64,000 nt of DNA from Gordonia sp. PP30 (lineage in GTDB: Bacteria; Actinomycetota; Actinomycetes; Mycobacteriales; Mycobacteriaceae): positions 3,100,001 to 3,164,000 of the forward strand of contig NZ_CP095864.1 in assembly GCF_023100845.1 (NCBI RefSeq), in the 5' to 3' direction. Shown here piece after piece: positions 12,038 through 57,237 of this stretch (the stretch's first letter is position 1; every line of letters starts with the position of its first letter). The notes below the pieces were generated by a model. That model was not told the DNA's origin and searched no databases. It saw only the letters and a list, made by a program, of their open reading frames with translations. The translations under genes were made by a program, and so were the position numbers.

Positions 12038-12091
12038 CCGTGTCTCTAATAGATCGTGGCCGGCGAGTGAGTCGGTTGAGGGATGCTGGTA
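12038..12091 (+). mobile_element. IS110-family copy A, remaining left tip
   Basis: The 54 bp CCGTGTCTCTAATAG...GGATGCTGGTA match the left end of IS110 copy B (54166-54219) with one base change. The sequence then breaks into an IS3-family element. Copy A resumes at 13389 with TTTGCGGTTGACC. Relative to copy B, the 171 bp at 54220-54390 are missing, so the IS3 insertion was accompanied by a deletion in the non-coding left end. Confidence 0.8.
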
Positions 12092-12124
12092 GGGACTGCT
12101 GCACGTTTAGGTGACAGGTTGTAG

Positions 12125-13012
12125 TCACGCTGCGAGAGCGACGCTGTTGGTCATGATGGTCTCGAATTCGATGGGCGTCAAACGGCCGAGGCGGGCTTGC
12201 CGGCGGCGGCGGTGGTAGGTCCGCTCGATCCAGGTGACGATCGCGGTGCGCAGCTGTTCTCGGGTGGTCCAGGAGCGGCGGTCGAGGACGTTCTTCTGCA
12301 GCAGCGCGAAGAAGCTTTCCATAGCGGCGTTGTCTCCGCTGGAGCCGACTCTTCCCATGCTTCCGACCATGCGATGACGGGTCAAAGCGCGCCGGAATTT
12401 GCGGCTTCGGAATTGAGACCCCCTGTCCGAATGCACCACACAGCCGGCGACATCGCCGCGCATCGCGACGGCGTTCTCGAGCGCTCGGACGGCCAATCGG
12501 GCCCTCATCCGAGAGTCGATCGAGTACCCGACGATCCGGCCACTGAACGCGTCCTTGATCGCGCAGAGGTACAGCTTGCCCTCCGCGGTCGGGTGCTCGG
12601 TGATGTCGGTCAGCCACAGCTGGTTCGGTGCGTCCGCGGCGAACACGTGCCGTGTCCGGCCGTGCTCGTCGACGACGGCGCAGAGGTCGTCGTGCACGGG
12701 CGGGCCGGGCTTGCGAGCCTTGCTGCGCTTGGGTTTGCCGAACGCGCTGAACCAGCCGTTCGTCGAGGCGATACGCCACGCAGTCCGGTCCGCCATCGCC
12801 TCGCCGTTGCCGCGGGCCTCGTCGGCCAGGAGCCGGTGCCCGAACTCAGGGTCGTCCCGGTGGGCGTCGAACAGAGCGTTCGCGCGATAGGCCTGCACCA
12901 CCTCGCTCGGGGTGATGGGGTTGGCCAGCCACCGGTAGTAGGGCTGGCGGGAGAGCTTCAATACCCGACACGTCACCGTCACAGGAACCCCTGCGGCGGC
13001 GAGCTCGGTCAC
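12125..13012 (-). CDS. IS3-family transposase OrfB (element 1)
   Basis: 295-residue integrase-like subunit with an rve domain. DDE motif: D in LWLTDITEHPTAEGKLYLCAIKD, D in CVVHSDRGSQFRSRKF and E in SGDNAAMESFFALLQKNVLD. The HTH_21-like N-terminal region is present (VVQAYRANALFDAHRDDPEFGHRLLADEARG). The GTG start overlaps the orfA stop as GTGA, suggesting termination-reinitiation or frameshifting between the two. It appears intact. Confidence 0.92.
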   Translation of the reverse strand: MTELAAAGVPVTVTCRVLKLSRQPYYRWLANPITPSEVVQAYRANALFDAHRDDPEFGHRLLADEARGNGEAMADRTAWRIASTNGWFSAFGKPKRSKARKPGPPVHDDLCAVVDEHGRTRHVFAADAPNQLWLTDITEHPTAEGKLYLCAIKDAFSGRIVGYSIDSRMRARLAVRALENAVAMRGDVAGCVVHSDRGSQFRSRKFRRALTRHRMVGSMGRVGSSGDNAAMESFFALLQKNVLDRRSWTTREQLRTAIVTWIERTYHRRRRQARLGRLTPIEFETIMTNSVALAA

Positions 13013-13326
13013 GAGCGGGTAGAGCCTTTTCCCAGCAGATTCGCCTGCGACAGATACGCCGCCGCACGGCGCAGCACCTCGTTCTCCTGCTCGAGGAGCC
13101 GGTTCCGTCGGCGCAGCTCACGGATCTCCGCGGACTCGGTCCGAGACTGACCCGGCCTGGCGCCCTCATCGATCTCGGCTCGACGCAACCACTTCTGCAA
13201 CGTCATCGGATGGACCCCGAAGTCTTTCGCGATCTGCTCGATCGTCACTCCAGGTTCACGGTTCTGAGCGACGCGAACCACGTCGTCACGAAACTCGGAC
13301 GGGTAGGGCTTGGGCACGATGGCCAT
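13009..13326 (-). CDS. IS3-family transposase OrfA (element 1)
   Basis: 105-residue DNA-binding subunit: an HTH (about 10-55, YPSEFRDDVVRVAQNREPGVTIEQIAKDFGVHPMTLQKWL) and a leucine-rich coiled coil (about 70-95, IRELRRRNRLLEQENEVLRRAAAYL). It pairs with OrfB downstream, with a 4-bp overlap. Confidence 0.92.
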   Translation of the reverse strand: MAIVPKPYPSEFRDDVVRVAQNREPGVTIEQIAKDFGVHPMTLQKWLRRAEIDEGARPGQSRTESAEIRELRRRNRLLEQENEVLRRAAAYLSQANLLGKGSTRS

Positions 13327-13469
13327 CCTTCCAGGCCCACCCTCCCAGGCAAGCCAGATCAGATGTCACCTAAACGTGCAGCAGTCCCTTTGCGGTTGAC
13401 CGGCACCGACCGATAGCGGACGACCCGTCCCTGTCGAAAGTGCTGGACATGAGTCAAGGGAGGTCCGCT

Positions 13470-14375
13470 GTGACCAGTATTTCAGAACGGTATGACTACG
13501 TTGTGGGCGTAGACACCCACGCCAAAAATCATCTGTACGCGATCATCGACGCCAGAACCGGTGCGGTGCTCGCCCGGCCGGAGAAGTTCACCGTCACCAG
13601 CGCCGGTTTCACCAAGGCGCTGGCCTGGATCGGCCGTCACACCGCCGGCGCCCGGGTGCTGGCCGCGATCGAGGGCACCAACTCCTACGGCCGTACCCTG
13701 GCGCAGGCCGCCGGCACCGCCGGCGTGGCGGTGACCGAGGCCCGGGCGTCATCGAAGAAGGCCCGCCGCGGCACCGGCAAGACCGACGGCCTCGACGCGA
13801 TACGCGCCGCCCGATCGGTCCTGGAACGCTCCCTCGCCGAACTCACCGAGCCACGCCAGGGAAAAACGCGTGCTGACCTGCAAGTTCTGCTGATCTCCCG
13901 GCGTCAGAAGTCCCGGCAGAAGACGGCGACGATCAACACGCTGAACGCGATCGTGCGGACCCTGGGCCTGGTGGCAGACACCGGCAAGAAGCTGACAATG
14001 ACCCAGATCCGAGCCATCGCCGACGGCGGCCTCACCGGCTCCGGGCACTCAGCGATCGCCGTGGCAGCGGCCACCGATCTGGCCGACGAGATCATCGAAT
14101 GCCACAAGGCCCTGGCGGCCAACGAGCGGCGTCTGCGCGCTGTCGTGGCCTCCTGGCGGCCCGAGCTGCTCGCCGTCGTCGGCGTCGGGCCAGTAACGGC
14201 CGCCCGCATCCTGACGGTCTGGTCGCACCCGGGCCGGTTCGCCAGCCAGGCCCACTTCGCCTCGATCGCCGGAGCCAGTCCCGTACCGATCGGCAGCGGC
14301 CAATCACTGGCGTGGCGACTGAACTACGGCGGCGACCTGAACCGCCCCGGCATGTCCGGAGACTTTCTAGTTTGA
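13470..14375 (+). pseudogene. IS110-family transposase, copy A, 3' truncated
   Basis: DEDD/RuvC-like transposase with N-terminal motif YDYVVGVDTHAKNHLYAI, the acids E in AAIEGTNSYGRTLAQ and D in KTDGLDAIRAA, and the C-terminal serine region ASIAGASPVPIGSGQS. The GTG at 13470 is chosen because AAGGGAGG lies 6 nt upstream. Homology to copy B stops at 14337, where IS3 element 2 begins; the last 12 codons read from that element. About 70 C-terminal residues are lost, so the protein is probably dead. Confidence 0.9.
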
Positions 14376-15317
14376 GACCTCGACGAGTGTCGGGGTCGGT
14401 TGTTGAGCGTAGTGCGCAGTCTCCATCTCTGCTGGCGGGATGTCGCCGCAGTACTCGTAGAGCCTTCGGTGGTTGAACCAGTCGACCCACTCCGCGGTGG
14501 CGACCTCGACCTGGTCGACGGTGCGCCACGGGCCTCTGGCTTTGATCAGCTCGGTCTTGTAGAGCCCGTTGATCGACTCGGCCAGCGCGTTGTCATAGGA
14601 CGATCCGACAACCCCCATCGAGGGACGGATTCCGTCAGCGGCGAGCCGCTCGCTGTAGGCCACAGAGGTGTACTGGCTGCCGTGGTCGTGATGCTGGACC
14701 ACCCCGGCCACCGGCCGGCCCTCCCGCTGCCGTGTCCACACAGCATGGTCGATGGCGTCCAACACCAGCTGAGAGGTCATCGATGTCGACGACCTCCAGC
14801 CAATGATCCGACGCGCGTAGGCATCGATCACGAACGCCACGTAGACCCAGCCGGCCCACGTCGACACGTAGGTGAAGTCGGCCACCCATAGCCGGTCCGG
14901 CGCCAACGGCGCGAACTGACGTCCCACGAGGTCACCGGGATGCTTCGCCTTCGGATCAGCGATCGTCGTGCGCTTGACCTTGCCCCGGATCGCGCCACGA
15001 AGACCGAGGTCGCTCATCAGCCGTTCCACCGTGCACCTAGCGATCGGCTCGGCATCAGCGGTGCGCTCCCGGTTGAGCTGAAGCCAAACCTTCCGGGCTC
15101 CGTAGACGCCGTAGTTCTCGGCATGAACCTTGGCCACCTTCGGCCTCAACTCCTCATCCCGCACTTCACGCTTGGACGGCTTGTGGGAGCGGTGCTCGTA
15201 GTAGGTCGCGGGGGCGATCTTGGCGCCCAGCTCGGTGAGCTGGTCACAGATCGACTCGACACCCCATCGCAGACCTTCCTCGTGCTGGTCACCGACGTGC
15301 TCGTCGATATACCGCAC
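14367..15317 (-). CDS. IS3-family transposase OrfB (element 2)
   Basis: 316 residues with rve core. The DDE acids are D in LWVADFTYVSTWAGWVYVAFVIDAY, D in VVQHHDHGSQYTSVAYSE and E in SSYDNALAESINGLYKTELI. The N-terminal HTH_21-like part (YGVYGARKVWLQLNRE) is present. It starts with GTG, 2 bp after the orfA stop. Apparently intact, and of a different IS3 subgroup from element 1. Confidence 0.92.
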   Translation of the reverse strand: MRYIDEHVGDQHEEGLRWGVESICDQLTELGAKIAPATYYEHRSHKPSKREVRDEELRPKVAKVHAENYGVYGARKVWLQLNRERTADAEPIARCTVERLMSDLGLRGAIRGKVKRTTIADPKAKHPGDLVGRQFAPLAPDRLWVADFTYVSTWAGWVYVAFVIDAYARRIIGWRSSTSMTSQLVLDAIDHAVWTRQREGRPVAGVVQHHDHGSQYTSVAYSERLAADGIRPSMGVVGSSYDNALAESINGLYKTELIKARGPWRTVDQVEVATAEWVDWFNHRRLYEYCGDIPPAEMETAHYAQQPTPTLVEVSN

Positions 15318-15319
15318 GA

Positions 15320-15646
15320 TCAGCGCTGTGGCCGGTCGAGTTCGGCCGCGAAGAAAGCCGATGCGCTCTTGAGGATCGCGTTGGCCCGCTTGAGCTCGGC
15401 ATTCTCGCGCTTCAACCGCTTCAGCTCCGCTGACTCCTCACTCGTCGTCCCAACCCGCTGCCCGGCATCAACCTCGGCCTGACGACACCACTTCCTCACC
15501 GTCTCAGGCGTCCCGATCCCGAGCAGCGTCGCGACCTGCCTCATCGCCGCCCAGTCCGACTCGTGGTCGGCCCGGATCTCGCCAACCATCCTGACCGCCC
15601 GCTCACGCAGCTCGGCCGTGTACCTCTTCGACGTACTCCCTGCCAT
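15320..15646 (-). CDS. IS3-family transposase OrfA (element 2)
   Basis: 108 residues. An HTH (about 8-55, YTAELRERAVRMVGEIRADHESDWAAMRQVATLLG) is followed by a coiled coil (about 72-98, SAELKRLKRENAELKRANAIL). First gene of element 2. Confidence 0.92.
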   Translation of the reverse strand: MAGSTSKRYTAELRERAVRMVGEIRADHESDWAAMRQVATLLGIGTPETVRKWCRQAEVDAGQRVGTTSEESAELKRLKRENAELKRANAILKSASAFFAAELDRPQR

Positions 15647-15715
15647 GACTCCATCCTTCCCAAGGAACGGAGTCTCCGGACATGCCGGGGCGGTTCACAC
15701 CCACGGAACCAGTAA

Positions 15716-15769
15716 CCAGTCTCCCTCGACCGACTCACTCGCCGATCACCACCTATTAGAGACTCGCCC
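15716..15769 (-). mobile_element. Inverted relic of an IS110-type left end
   Basis: Read on the minus strand, this starts GAGTCTCTAATAG and continues TCGGCGAGTGAGTCGG. It matches the left tip of IS110 copies A and B at most positions over some 50 bp. It lies just outside IS3 element 2 and points toward it, so a related, diverged IS110 element in opposite orientation once stood here and lost its interior. Confidence 0.65.
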
Positions 15770-52938: not shown

Positions 52939-54078
52939 ATGCCCCTGTCGTTCCCCGGCGCCGCGCGCGCCGCCGCGCTCGTCGCTGCCGCCACCCTGGC
53001 CGCGGCGACGCTCGCCGGCTGCGCCGACTTCAGCGAGCAGGATCACACCGCGAACGCCGGCCCGTTCAGTTCGATCCCCGAGGGGGGCGGCGGCGCGCCG
53101 GAGACTCCGCGGACGCCCGACCCGACGGAGACCGGCCCCGCCCCGACCGGTCCGTGCGTCGACCCGAATCCGGCGGTGATCGCGACGTGTCTCGGTACGA
53201 CGGGCGGGGTCCGCCCGGCCGATCCGGAGGGCCGGTCGACGTATGTCGCCGAGCGCGTGACCGGCAAGATCATCATTTCCAAGCGGTACGGTCCGCAGCG
53301 CACCATCGCGACGGTGCCGGTCGACGGCAGCGGTGACGGCGGACTGATCGACTTCGAGCTGTCCCCCACCTACCAGCAGGACCAGTTGATCTACGCGCTG
53401 ATCTCCACGGGTTCGGACAACCGGATCGTGCGGATCGCGCCCGGCAACGCGGTGAAGGCGATCCTCACCGGCATCCCGAAGGGCGCCACCGGCAACATGG
53501 GGTCGATCAGTTTCGCGTCGCCCACCGAGCTGCGCGTGGCGACCGGCAACGCCGGGAACCCCGGTGCGGCCGGCGATCCGGGATCGCTCGCCGGCAAGGT
53601 CTTCACCATCGACCCGAATCTGACCAACCCGCGGCCGAAGATCCTGGCGTCGGGGCTCGGCGCGAATGTGGCGCTCTGCCCGGATCCGGAGAGCGGCAAG
53701 CTCTACGTCGCCGACAGCGGCGCCGCGGGTGACCGCCTCCAGCAGGTGGAGCCCGCCGGCCTCCGCACACTGTGGACGTGGGCGGACCGGCCCGGTATCA
53801 CCGGCTGCGCGGTCTCCGCCGGGATCATCTCGGTGTCGATGGCCCGCGCATTCCGGATCGACAGCCTCGCCGCGCCGACCAACGCGAGCCCGTCGGTCGG
53901 TCAGCCGCAGACGTCCGACGTCAAGGAGCAGTACGGCGCGGTCGGCCGGATGACCAGCACCGGGTCTGCGGTCCAGCTGGCGACCATCAACAAGACGGTG
54001 TCCGGTGCTCCGGCCAAGACCACGAACGACGTCGTCGCCCTCTACGCTCCGCAGTCGCAGAGCGACGACAGGCGCTGA
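52939..54078 (+). CDS. LppZ-like lipoprotein, sorbosone dehydrogenase-type beta-propeller
   Basis: 379 residues from the ATG at 52939. Signal peptide with lipobox TLAAATLAGCADFS (Cys about residue 27), a Pro/Thr-rich linker, then a six-bladed propeller of the glucose/sorbosone dehydrogenase type (YVAERVTGKIIISKRYGPQRTIATVPVDG, GGLIDFELSPTYQQDQLIYALI, LRVATGNAGNPGAAGDPGSLAGKVFTID). Anchored outside the membrane. Position and plan match Rv3006 (LppZ). The catalytic role is uncertain. CATACT 8 nt before the ATG suggests a leaderless start. Confidence 0.88.
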   Translation: MPLSFPGAARAAALVAAATLAAATLAGCADFSEQDHTANAGPFSSIPEGGGGAPETPRTPDPTETGPAPTGPCVDPNPAVIATCLGTTGGVRPADPEGRSTYVAERVTGKIIISKRYGPQRTIATVPVDGSGDGGLIDFELSPTYQQDQLIYALISTGSDNRIVRIAPGNAVKAILTGIPKGATGNMGSISFASPTELRVATGNAGNPGAAGDPGSLAGKVFTIDPNLTNPRPKILASGLGANVALCPDPESGKLYVADSGAAGDRLQQVEPAGLRTLWTWADRPGITGCAVSAGIISVSMARAFRIDSLAAPTNASPSVGQPQTSDVKEQYGAVGRMTSTGSAVQLATINKTVSGAPAKTTNDVVALYAPQSQSDDRR

Positions 54079-54139
54079 TCCATCGACATCCGCCGCGAGC
54101 CCGACTGGCCGGGCAGTGGACGTAGCAGCGTGCGCGCAC

Positions 54140-54167
54140 GGAAGCAGCGCTCGCGAACGCTGCTTCC
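54140..54167 (+). terminator. lppZ terminator hairpin at the IS110 boundary
   Basis: Perfect 10-bp stem GGAAGCAGCG (54140-54149) and CGCTGCTTCC (54158-54167). Its last two bases are also the first shared bases of the IS110 left end, so the element appears to have inserted right beside a hairpin. Confidence 0.75.
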
Positions 54168-54471
54168 GTGTCTCTAATAGATCGTGGTCGGCGAGTGAGT
54201 CGGTTGAGGGATGCTGGTACCGGCCTGGCCGGGTGTGGCTACTCCGTGTCTTGCCGTCTGGCTTTGGTGCTGGGCTGGCTGGGTTTCGACTTGTCCACCC
54301 GGCGGGGCCGGTGCCGGTCGCCCTCTGCGGCGATGACTGAATAGAAGCCCGTCCAGCGTGACTCCTTAGAGACCTGTCTCGCCGCAGCCGTTTGCGGTTG
54401 ACCGGCACCGACCGATAGCGGACGACCCGTCCCTGTCGAAAGTGCTGGACATGAGTCAAGGGAGGTCCGCT
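54168..54471 (+). ncRNA. Candidate IS110 bridge-RNA locus (left end)
   Basis: Non-coding left end of copy B. In IS621 and other IS110-group elements this region encodes a structured bridge RNA that pairs with target and donor DNA. Here it has inverted motifs such as CCGGCCTGGCCGG and several G-rich stems. In copy A, 171 bp of it (equivalent to 54220-54390) are missing. Assignment rests on family knowledge and position; no fold was computed. Confidence 0.4.
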
Positions 54472-54817
54472 GTGACCAGTATTTCAGAACAGTATGACTA
54501 CGTTGTGGGCGTAGACACCCACGCCAAAAATCATCTGTACGCGATCATCGACGCCAGAACCGGTGCGGTGCTCGCCCGGCCGGAGAAGTTCGCCGTCACC
54601 AGCGCCGGTTTCACCAAGGCGCTGGCCTGGATCGGCCGTCACACCGCCGGCGCCCGGGTGCTGGCCGCGATCGAGGGCACCAACTCCTACGGCCGTACCC
54701 TGGCGCAGGCCGCCGGCACCGCCGGCGTGGCGGTGACCGAGGCCCGGGCGTCATCGAAGAAGGCCCGCCGCGGCACCGGCAAGACCGACGGCCTCGACGC
54801 GATACGCGCCGCCCGAT
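54472..54817 (+). pseudogene. IS110 transposase copy B, 5' part
   Basis: First 115 codons from a GTG at 54472 with AAGGGAGG 6 nt upstream. It differs from copy A at few positions (for example EQYDY for ERYDY and KFAVTSAG for KFTVTSAG). It contains the first catalytic acids (GVDTHAKNHLYAI, AAIEGTNSYG, KTDGLDAI) and is cut by the IS256 insertion. Confidence 0.9.
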
Positions 54818-56278
54818 GAGCCTGTCAAGTTTTCTGTGTATGTCGTTCGGGTGTTCGGGTTAGAGGTGATGGTTGATTCGTTCGGGGTAGATCAGGGAGA
54901 GTTGTTCCAATGCTCGTTTCCAGTTCGTGGTGACTTGGCCTTCGACGAGTCGGCCGGGGGCTCGGCGTTGATCGGCGGGTAGTCCTTTCTCCTTCTCGCG
55001 TTCACGGGCGCGTTTGTCCTCGATGTTGCCGATCGCCATCCACAGCAGCTTCACGGCGGCTGCGTCGTTCGGGAAGTGCCCGCGGTTCTTGATGACCTTG
55101 CGCAACTGGTAGTTCAACGATTCGATGCTGTTGGTCGTGTAGATCACCCGGCGCAGCTCCGGCGGGAACGCCAGGAACGGGGTGAACCGTTCCCAGGCGT
55201 CGCGGAAACTGCGCACCGTCGACTGGTAGCGGCGCCCGAGTTCGGAGGCGTCGAACTCCTCCAGGGCCTGGAGAGCAGCGTCGGCGCTGGAGGCCTGGTA
55301 GACCGGTTTGAGGGCGGCAGCGACGGCTTTGCGGTCACCGTAGGACACGAACCGCATCGACGCCCGGATCAGGTGGACCACGCACGTCTGCACGGTAGCC
55401 TGCGGCCAGGTCGCCTCGACCGCGTCGGCGAACCCGGTCAGCCCGTCACAGCACACGATCAGCACGTCCTGCACGCCGCGATTACGGAGTTCAGCGCACA
55501 CCGACGCCCAGAATTTGGCGCCCTCGGTCTGCGCGATCCAGATCCCCAGGACGTGCTTGATACCGTCCACGTCGACACCGACGGCCAGGTGCGCGGACTT
55601 GTTGATCACGTGCCCGCCGTCACGGACCTTGACCACGATCGCGTCGAGGTACATCACCGGGTACAGCGGTTCGAGGTCACGTTGCTGCCACTTGATCACC
55701 TCGTCGGCGACCTCTTCGGTGATTTTCGAGATCGTCTCGTGCGACAGGTCCGTGCCGATCGTGGAGGCCAGATGGTGCTGGATATCGCGGATCGTCATCC
55801 CGCCGGCGTAGAGCGAGACGATCATCGCGTCCAGACCGTCCAGACGGCGCTGGCCCTTGCGGACCAGCATCGGGATGAACGAGCCGTCGCGGTCACGCGG
55901 GATACGTAACTCCACGTCCCCGACCTCGGTGGCGACAGTCTTGGTGCCGTAACCGTTACGGGAGTTGGGAAACGACGACGCCTCCGGGTCGCCGGCCTCG
56001 TACCCGAGGTGATCGCTCAACTCGGCGTTCAAACCACGCTCCAGGGCCGCCTTCATCAGCGACCCGAGCAGACCGCCCTCGCCGGTCAACGGCTCGCCGC
56101 CATCGATCTTGGCAAGGACATCATCGAGCGCACCCGAGGCGATGAGCGCATCGGTGGCCTCGTTCTGGCGGCGACGCCGCTCTTCTCGTGACTGATCCAC
56201 AGTCACATCATCGATGGTCACAGTGAGAGTTCCTTTCAGGACTCACCCTCCCGACTTACACAGACCATCTGACACGCC
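54818..56278 (-). mobile_element. IS256-family insertion sequence, intact
   Basis: 1461 bp inside the IS110 transposase gene, flanked by a 9-bp direct repeat CCGCCCGAT (54809-54817 and 56279-56287). The ends share an imperfect inverted repeat with TGTCA and TCTGTGTA in common (left GAGCCTGTCAAGTTTTCTGT, right ends ...CTGACACGCC). Removing the element and one repeat restores the IS110 frame exactly. Confidence 0.92.
54860..56221 (-). CDS. IS256-family (mutator-type) transposase
   Basis: 453 residues. An N-terminal region with GLLGSLMKAALERGLNAELSDHLGYE is followed by the DDE core: first Asp in YPVMYLDAIVVKVRDGG, second in VLIVCCDGLTGFADAVEATWP, and the Glu in RRVIYTTNSIESLNYQLRK. The signature TCVVHLIRASMRFVSYGDRK is also typical. 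It is full length and apparently active. Confidence 0.95.
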   Translation of the reverse strand: MTIDDVTVDQSREERRRRQNEATDALIASGALDDVLAKIDGGEPLTGEGGLLGSLMKAALERGLNAELSDHLGYEAGDPEASSFPNSRNGYGTKTVATEVGDVELRIPRDRDGSFIPMLVRKGQRRLDGLDAMIVSLYAGGMTIRDIQHHLASTIGTDLSHETISKITEEVADEVIKWQQRDLEPLYPVMYLDAIVVKVRDGGHVINKSAHLAVGVDVDGIKHVLGIWIAQTEGAKFWASVCAELRNRGVQDVLIVCCDGLTGFADAVEATWPQATVQTCVVHLIRASMRFVSYGDRKAVAAALKPVYQASSADAALQALEEFDASELGRRYQSTVRSFRDAWERFTPFLAFPPELRRVIYTTNSIESLNYQLRKVIKNRGHFPNDAAAVKLLWMAIGNIEDKRAREREKEKGLPADQRRAPGRLVEGQVTTNWKRALEQLSLIYPERINHHL

Positions 56279-57033
56279 CCGCCCGATCGGTCCTGGAACG
56301 CTCCCTCGCCGAACTCACCGAGCCACGCCAGGGAAAAACGCGTGCTGACCTGCAAGTTCTGCTGATCTCCCGGCGTCAGAAGTCCCGGCAGAAGACGGCG
56401 ATGATCAACACGCTGAACGCGATCGTGCGGACCCTGGGCCTGGTGGCAGACACCGGCAAGAAGCTGACAATGACCCAGATCCGAGCCATCGCCGACGGCG
56501 GCCTCACCGGCTCCGGGCACTCAGCGATCGCCGTGGCAGCGGCCACCGATCTGGCCGACGAGATCATCGAATGCCACAAGGCCCTGGCGGCCAACGAGCG
56601 GCGCCTGCGCGCTGTCGTGGCCTCCTGGCGGCCCGAGCTGCTCGCCGTCGTCGGCGTCGGGCCAGTAACGGCCGCCCGCATCCTGACGGTCTGGTCGCAC
56701 CCGGGCCGGTTCGCCAGCCAGGCCCACTTCGCCTCGATCGCCGGAGCCAGTCCCGTACCGATCGGCAGCGGCCAATCACTGGCGTGGCGACTGAACTACG
56801 GCGGCGACCGACAACTCAATTCCGCCCTGCACACCATCGCCCTGACCCGCAAACGTCACGATCAACGCACCAAGGACTACATCACCAAACGCACCACCGA
56901 CGGCAAGACCCCACGCGCGATCGATCGACTCCTCAAACGCTACATCGCCCGCGAGATCTTCAAACTCCTCGAACACGGCCCCACACACGCAATCAGCGGC
57001 ACCCACGACCACCAGCTCCCCGCTGCCGCTTGA
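56279..57033 (+). pseudogene. IS110 transposase copy B, 3' part
   Basis: Remaining codons (RSVLERSLAELTEPRQGKTR to DHQLPAAA). It contains the Tnp_2 region with SIAGASPVPIGSGQSLAWRLNYGGD and the C-terminal RQLNSALHTIALTRKRHDQR, which copy A lacks. Joined to the 5' part without the insertion it would give a 363-residue protein from the GTG start. Confidence 0.9.
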
Positions 57034-57237
57034 CAACGAACATAGAAGCGTCGACTCGCTGCTACGCGGCCGAGGCCTGGTGAGAGCCGGGCACTAGAAG
57101 GGTGGCTTCGACACCTCGCCTCGCCCTGGCGGGCTCGTCGACGGCTCAGCCGGCGATGGACAGTCGGCGTCGAACAGTCGGTGGCCGACTGGGATGCTGC
57201 GAGGCGCGCATGGCGGACCTGCTCGACCCAGGGGCGC
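57034..57237. other. IS110 right end and gatB downstream spacer
   Basis: About 200 bp between the IS110 transposase stop and the gatB stop. The first 30-60 bp should be the element's right end; the rest contains the common CTTCGACACCTCGCC...GGCTCG repeat motif (57107-57145). No gene or clear terminator. Confidence 0.5.

Follow-up and report, generated by a model that had tools for sequence, protein, structure and literature searches.

Does the non-coding left end of an IS110-family element of Gordonia sp. PP30 encode a bridge RNA, with one loop reading the target and another reading the ends of the element itself? The element in question, here termed copy B, spans positions 54172-57051 of the window (i.e., the stretch of 64,000 nucleotides that was analysed) and comprises about 300 bp of non-coding DNA on its left side (54172-54471) versus only 18 bp to the right of the stop codon of its recombinase gene. 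That gene is split by an IS256-family element bordered by an 8-bp duplication, CGCCCGAT, as read by eye. Of the Pfam domains DEDD_Tnp_IS110 (PF01548) and Transposase_20 (PF02371), both were detected in the recombinase of a second copy in the window, copy A, with PF01548 also being detected in the first piece of the copy B gene. Copy B very probably encodes an IS110-type bridge RNA in its left end, and the explanation as a whole, namely that this left end supplies both the target and the donor loops, is assigned a probability of about 0.95. The features of copy B and its surroundings are listed below.

54129..54171, + strand: palindromic target repeat, left half, including the inner hairpin (54140-54167) and the left target TTCCGTGT
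54172..57051: IS110 copy B, whole element
54172..54180, + strand: start of the copy B left end, CT-CTAATAG, with TCTAAT (54173-54178) as a -10-like hexamer in the circle
54183..54398, + strand: probable bridge RNA, matched by covariance model R1 (96.1 bits, a match by construction because copy B was among the 18 training sequences of that model)
54186..54204, + strand: 5' stem-loop of the RNA, from the consensus fold
54242..54251, + strand: predicted left target guide, CTCCGTGTCT
54284..54290, + strand: predicted right target guide, TTTCGAC, its last two bases being the handshake guide
54341..54348, + strand: predicted left donor guide, ATAGAAGC, identical in letters to the right end
54366..54373, + strand: predicted right donor guide, TTAGAGAC, with complementarity to GTCTCTAA (54170-54177) of the left junction
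54459..54465, + strand: Shine-Dalgarno-like AGGGAGG ahead of the GTG start at 54472, read by eye
54472..54817, + strand: recombinase gene of copy B, 5' part, interrupted
54818..56279 (about), - strand: IS256-family element within copy B, ends read by eye
56280..57033, + strand: recombinase gene of copy B, 3' part
57030..57051, + strand: right end of copy B, with TTGACA (57030-57035; -35-like) and the left donor ATAGAAGC-GT, which runs to 57051
57052..57073, + strand: right half of the target repeat, C-GACTCGCTGCTACG

The insertion site of copy B

The original prediction placed a perfect hairpin at 54140-54167, and a perfect 10-bp stem closed by an 8-base loop was indeed found there. The hairpin occupies the interior of a palindromic repeat, dispersed in the genome, in which copy B is inserted, the repeat letters GTGGCAGCG...CGCTGCTAC lying around the hairpin. 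A search of the genome with one intact copy of the repeat returned 19 matches, corresponding to 13 other places and the surroundings of copy B, with some places being matched on both strands, as expected of a palindrome. Two of the 19 matches are the halves that flank copy B, found at 54129-54168 (L080) and 57048-57073 (L089) of the window. At 12 of the 13 other places, the empty site could be aligned with the joined flanks of copy B, as in L073, which reads CTGCTTCTGTGTCGGCTCGCTGCTACG. From this alignment, the ends of the element can be placed up to the ambiguity of the GTC common to the target and to both junctions. As for the proposal that the hairpin itself is the target, it does adjoin copy B, yet the predicted guides pair across its 3' edge (...TTCCGTGT-C-GACTC...) and not with the stem, apart from the last bases of the latter.

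Could the recombinase nonetheless recognize such a hairpin, be it a terminator or a repeat, as a DNA structure? Copy B does lie beside a perfect hairpin in a dispersed repeat, and six copies of a relative in Arthrobacter sp. NtRootA1 lie in another palindromic repeat. Copy C, found elsewhere in the PP30 genome, is, however, located beside what appears by eye to be a ribosome-binding site and without that hairpin, and its flanks fit the same guides better than do those of copy B. Given how copy C fits in the absence of the hairpin, repeats would then simply be frequent places of the guide sequence. Recognition of the hairpin as a structure is considered unlikely.

Two further insertion sites in relatives were noted. 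In Arthrobacter sp. NtRootA1 (L099-L128), the repeat is a REP-like palindrome that is matched 55 times in the genome, and six places are filled by the IS110 relative at the same point. In another genome, containing both L054 and L060, L054 is preceded by a direct duplicate of its own left-end start, cut within the left target guide, apparently the result of an insertion that took place within the guide sequence of another copy.

Fold and guides among relatives

At strict E values, the searches yielded no close relatives of the recombinase beyond the PP30 genome itself, either in the 59 genomes of the genus (1/59 at 1e-60, its own) or in the 401 genomes of the family (1/401 at 1e-70, again its own). 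Therefore, relatives at about 40% protein identity were used. At 1e-40, the recombinase was detected in eight of 401 family genomes and eight of 394 class genomes, its own included. Genome contigs contributed 14 loci and plasmids 15 records, all below 60% identity, with 10 of the 15 plasmid records being retrieved; a search of viral contigs yielded no relatives of the recombinase. In total, 42 recombinase loci from genomes, genome contigs, and plasmids were considered, and 38 of these were given a left end, the exceptions being L030, L051, L058, and L070. Together with copies B and C and a relative in the same genome, D, these amounted to 41 entries, which fell into 22 clusters by RNA similarity. 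One entry per cluster was compared with its own versus swapped flanks, with the representatives being picked by hand (L048, L060, and copy C stood for the clusters of L045, L054, and copy B, respectively). No right end was found for five of the 22 clusters and for nine of the 41 entries, two of these lying at contig ends.

Among 18 aligned sequences (trimmed alignment A2, which took the place of a first alignment, A1, of 21 sequences), the conserved two-loop fold expected of a bridge RNA was present. The consensus consists of a 5' stem-loop, a stem containing the target-guide internal loop, and a stem containing the donor-guide internal loop, and includes 39 pairs, 27 of which show compensatory changes on both sides. 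In this fold, 95.1% of cells were paired, versus 80.0% in shuffled alignments, with none of 500 shuffles reaching the former value; controls in which partners were slid gave at most 47.3%. The four predicted guides of copy B fall in unpaired loop strands of the consensus. In the minimum-energy fold of copy B, there is partial pairing between the two strands within each guide loop, such that the open guide loops are a prediction of the consensus model.

Scanning the PP30 genome with the covariance model identified copies B and C, D, and a distant copy, F (290536-290754, upstream of a distant IS110 gene), all four matches lying upstream of the gene, as well as one further match at chance level (E 3.4). 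The model also recovered 11 of 14 held-out loci. As six of these (L064, L061, L045, L049, L065, and L069) are near training sequences, the remaining five, i.e., L031, L043, L050, L057, and L030, are more telling. A search of 53900-54900 against Rfam yielded two matches, both below the gathering score and on the other strand within the gene, and no curated family.

Matches between the predicted loops and the target and donor junctions held when compared with swapped controls. Across the 22 clusters (B/C and D included), the left target guide matched its own left flank at 157 of 198 positions; with swapped flanks, the permutation mean was 77.8 and the maximum 108, with 0 of 50,000 permutations reaching 157. 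When the whole RNA was scanned without fixing the position of the guide, the score with own flanks was 169, versus no more than 150 among 20,000 permutations. The best match to the left flank then lay 65-78 bases into the RNA in every cluster apart from L043 and D (20 of 22). At least six of nine positions matched in 19 of 22 clusters and in 36 of 41 entries, as compared to 17 of 462 swapped pairs of the 22 clusters. In the fixed register, L043, L055, and L067 scored just 3/9, as did L056 when all 41 entries were considered, with L065 scoring 2.

For the 17 clusters with a right end, the right target guide matched the right flank at 74 of 85 positions (permutation maximum 49; 0 of 50,000 reached the observed value), with weak matches in L033 and L038 (2/5 each) and in L055 (3/5). 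The last two bases of this guide match the two donor bases ahead of the core C, and the handshake base, i.e., the varying one of these, agreed in all 17 clusters, versus a permutation maximum of 15. Turning to the donor loop, the right donor guide matched the left end at 85 of 88 positions over 22 clusters (permutation maximum 79), being partly missed by L043 and L050, and the left donor guide matched the right end at both positions considered in each of 17 clusters (34/34), a value reached by one of 50,000 permutations.

The left end could, alternatively, be nothing other than the 5' leader of the transposase mRNA, acting as an attenuator that limits transposase and containing no guide. It immediately precedes the start codon and also folds well (z -4.6). 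A leader would, however, have no reason to track flanking host DNA, yet the loop letters vary with the flanks over the 22 clusters, and this explanation is deemed very unlikely. Beside its guide function, the left end may still play a second, regulatory role.

It could also be argued that the match to the left flank is a piece of a former target that was carried off by the element, with the RNA not reading the target at all. The duplicate that precedes L054 reveals that local copying or insertion into another copy does occur. In 20 of 22 clusters, however, the matching segment is positioned 65-78 bases inside the element, in a loop of the conserved fold, while the other flank has a matching segment of its own, on the opposite strand. 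A carried-off target is, as such, highly improbable.

Returning to a guide-bearing RNA, the fold and the guide-DNA matches are demonstrated at the level of sequence, where the four guide segments of copy B are readable against its insertion site and its own ends. That copy B carries the full bridge RNA locus, as originally proposed, is in agreement with the fold, the four guides, and the swap controls alike. The left target guide common to copies B and C fits the sites of B (7/9) and C (8/9), with a score of 4 at the site of D, whereas that of D fits its own site (7) better than those of B (4) or C (5). At the same time, B/C and D do not differ in the right target guide or in either donor guide. 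Judging by these scores, the B/C lineage and D represent a natural change of address, in which left target guides differ and each fits its own sites. The right target of copy B fits less well than does that of copy C, reading GACTC after the C where the guide asks for GAAAC.

Other copies in the PP30 genome

The original prediction drew on a comparison of copies A and B, which was reproduced. The two share a left tip (12038-12091 and 54166-54219, respectively) with one mismatch. Copy B then contains 171 bp (54220-54390) that are absent from copy A, which resumes at 13389, equivalent to 54391 in copy B, and an IS3-family element (12092-13388; NCBIfam IS3) sits exactly at the gap. The relevant features are as follows.

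12044..12091, + strand: left end of copy A, cut ahead of the guides
12092..13388, - strand: IS3-family element occupying the site of the 171 bp missing from copy A
13470..14338, + strand: recombinase gene of copy A, C-terminal end missing
14338..15698, - strand: second IS3-family element, which ends copy A, ends read by eye
15695..15766, - strand: element E, the left tip of a D-type IS110, inverted and cut short

The 171 bp were also found in other copies in the genome, namely, in copy C (99% identity to copy B) and in D (about 75% identity), as expected of a part of the element; because both carry the stretch, it was lost from copy A. The converse, that the 171 bp are an insertion in copy B, found no support and is scarcely credible given their presence in C and D and the position of the IS3 element exactly there in A.

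Copy A was accordingly described as a natural loss-of-guide mutant. This is true in that all four guides are gone, and the RNA model gave no match to copy A in scans of the window or the genome. The transposase of copy A is, however, cut by the second IS3 element, beyond which its tail and the right end are gone as well. With the C-terminus of the transposase and the right end also lost, the description holds yet is not informative, and copy A reads as a wreck rather than a clean guide mutant. Within 14338-15766, the truncated transposase of copy A and element E, the inverted D-type left tip, are joined through the second IS3 element, an arrangement that points to a past deletion or to recombination between two IS3 copies.

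The copy C gene lacks its 5' part and adjoins the same IS3 element as is found in copy A, the IS3 copies being 99.6% identical. By eye, the IS3 elements in A (12092-13388) and C (L021, about 1038-2335) are oppositely oriented relative to IS110, with a neighbouring deletion of IS110 sequence each time. Also by eye, copy C (L021, about 2644-2665) is situated just upstream of an apparent ribosome-binding site and start codon, belonging to an oppositely oriented gene that copy C would therefore part from its upstream region. In D, the recombinase gene is open over 363 codons, and an IS256-family element lies between the left tip and the RNA. The B and C transposases are broken and that of D is intact; the D recombinase passes the NCBIfam cut-off for 'IS110 family RNA-guided transposase'. 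The left end of the distant copy F (L030 1216-1250, genome from 290531) contains the inverted repeat GTCGTATCTGTTGGTCG-C-CGACCAACAGATACGAC. Its match to the bridge RNA model scored 57.6 bits, and examination of L030 by eye gave no convincing target match.

Recombination core, junction promoter, and known systems

In IS621, target and donor both show a strong preference for CT at their cores (PMC11208160), which the available text gives as a property of IS621 without setting it out as a rule for the family. Copy B alone cannot separate GT, TC, and C, because its target reads GTC. A GT core was rejected, since homology among left ends puts the core at the C of CT. CT is found at the left junction of all entries but L049, which has AT (40 of 41), although left ends were set by typed 12-letter strings and right ends by a pattern demanding TC after the donor bases, so that the constancy of those letters is partly by construction; the base after the C on the right was unconstrained. 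In targets of the 17 clusters, the base following the core C is A in six, C in seven, G in four, and T in none, while on the right side it is T in only one of 32 entries (L040). In 30 NtRootA1 loci of the 55 matches, uninterrupted repeat arms read CC in 27 and CT in three, and at the six filled sites the left junction is CT and the right one CC. A CT core of the IS621 type, common to donor and target, was hence not seen here; only the C is common.

The target guides behave similarly. The left guide bears the T that follows the C in the donor in 19 of 22 clusters, while the right guide agrees with whichever base comes after the C in the target in 17 of 17 and matches the two donor bases before the C, again in 17 of 17. 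It is tentatively proposed, at somewhat less than even odds, that the actinobacterial elements of this branch have a recombination core of only one common base, the donor being T-C-T and the target x-C-N, with the products being x-C-T on the left and T-C-N on the right and the target guides matching the products. Were this true, handshake pairing, as described in PMC11208158, would reach across the core, and a single fixed base, in place of CT, would be required of targets. A literature search on IS110, bridge RNA, and the core dinucleotide, with preprints and most subscription journals outside its scope, returned only the founding papers.

IS621 is also reported to rebuild a promoter at the circle junction (PMC11208160). 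When the right end was joined to the left end, as in a circle, TTGACA-17-TCTAAT was obtained in copies B and C and in D. Matches to the -35 and -10 hexamers at the junction were good (10 or 11 of 12) in five of 17 clusters (C, D, L057, L067, and L068), while the remaining 12 gave 7-9 of 12, the worst being those where the left end starts CTGTGAG; in L046 and L047, the -35 lay outside the segment scored.

The following mechanism is envisaged. Positions 54172-54471 form an IS110-group left end that very probably encodes a bridge RNA of some 200 nt. In the circular element, whose junction would read ...ATAGAAGCGT-CTCTAATAG..., TTGACA from the right end and TCTAAT from the left end would form a promoter at 17-bp spacing, from which RNA would start near 54185. 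The first internal loop would read the target, with CTCCGTGTCT pairing with the left half and TTTCGAC with the right half, and the second would read the element's own junction, with ATAGAAGC serving for the right end and TTAGAGAC for the left end. The DEDD recombinase would then join circle and target at the common C. For transcription, binding, and recombination, we infer these steps from IS621.

The locus would offer, in an actinobacterium, a natural bridge RNA that is legible throughout and that can be checked against empty sites. Moreover, one genome presents two guide programs with common donor guides and a common right target guide, plus an intact recombinase gene (D), the natural evidence within a single genome being unusually complete. 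As such, it lends itself to testing whether guides can be transferred between related elements and how strictly the IS621 CT core is required.

Of known systems, the IS1111 group is set apart by an RNA downstream of the gene and subterminal inverted repeats (PMC11187229); here, the RNA is upstream and the right end, at 18 bp, is too short, arguing against membership. The seekRNAs of IS1111/IS110 elements (PMC11187229) do resemble the present case in their natural re-programming among relatives. ISKrh6, an IS110 element of Kocuria rhizophila (PMC12500396), is likewise actinobacterial and has an upstream non-coding region assigned to a seekRNA, although no guides are given in the available text of that report, which states that the ends need experiment. 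When the recombinase was compared with the PDB at E values up to 0.01, only ISCro4 and IS621 matched.

It is IS621 that offers the closest parallels, according to the available portions of PMC11208160 and PMC11208158. In both cases, the RNA lies in the left end and contains a 5' stem-loop followed by two stem-loops with internal loops; the target loop comes first and the donor loop second; the 5' loop strand reads the bottom strand and the 3' loop strand the top strand; and a junction promoter, handshake bases, palindromic-repeat targets, and a recombinase with the same two Pfam domains are found. Differences were also noted. The proteins are only remotely similar (phmmer E 1.7e-06). The right target guide here reaches up to 7-8 bases, as compared to the four of IS621, with longer ones being reported in some orthologues in the same paper, as available. 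Finally, C alone is common to the donor (T-C-T) and target (x-C-N) here, whereas IS621 prefers CT in both. The sequence features of the IS110 group are otherwise recognizable, namely, a recombinase with both domains, a long left and a short right end, three stem-loops, a first loop that fits both target halves, a second loop that fits both element ends, and, in B, C, and D, a promoter across the circle junction. The predicted bridge RNA of copy B is, as such, well supported and ordinary for its family, belonging to a system already known from the IS621 bridge RNA and from seekRNA.
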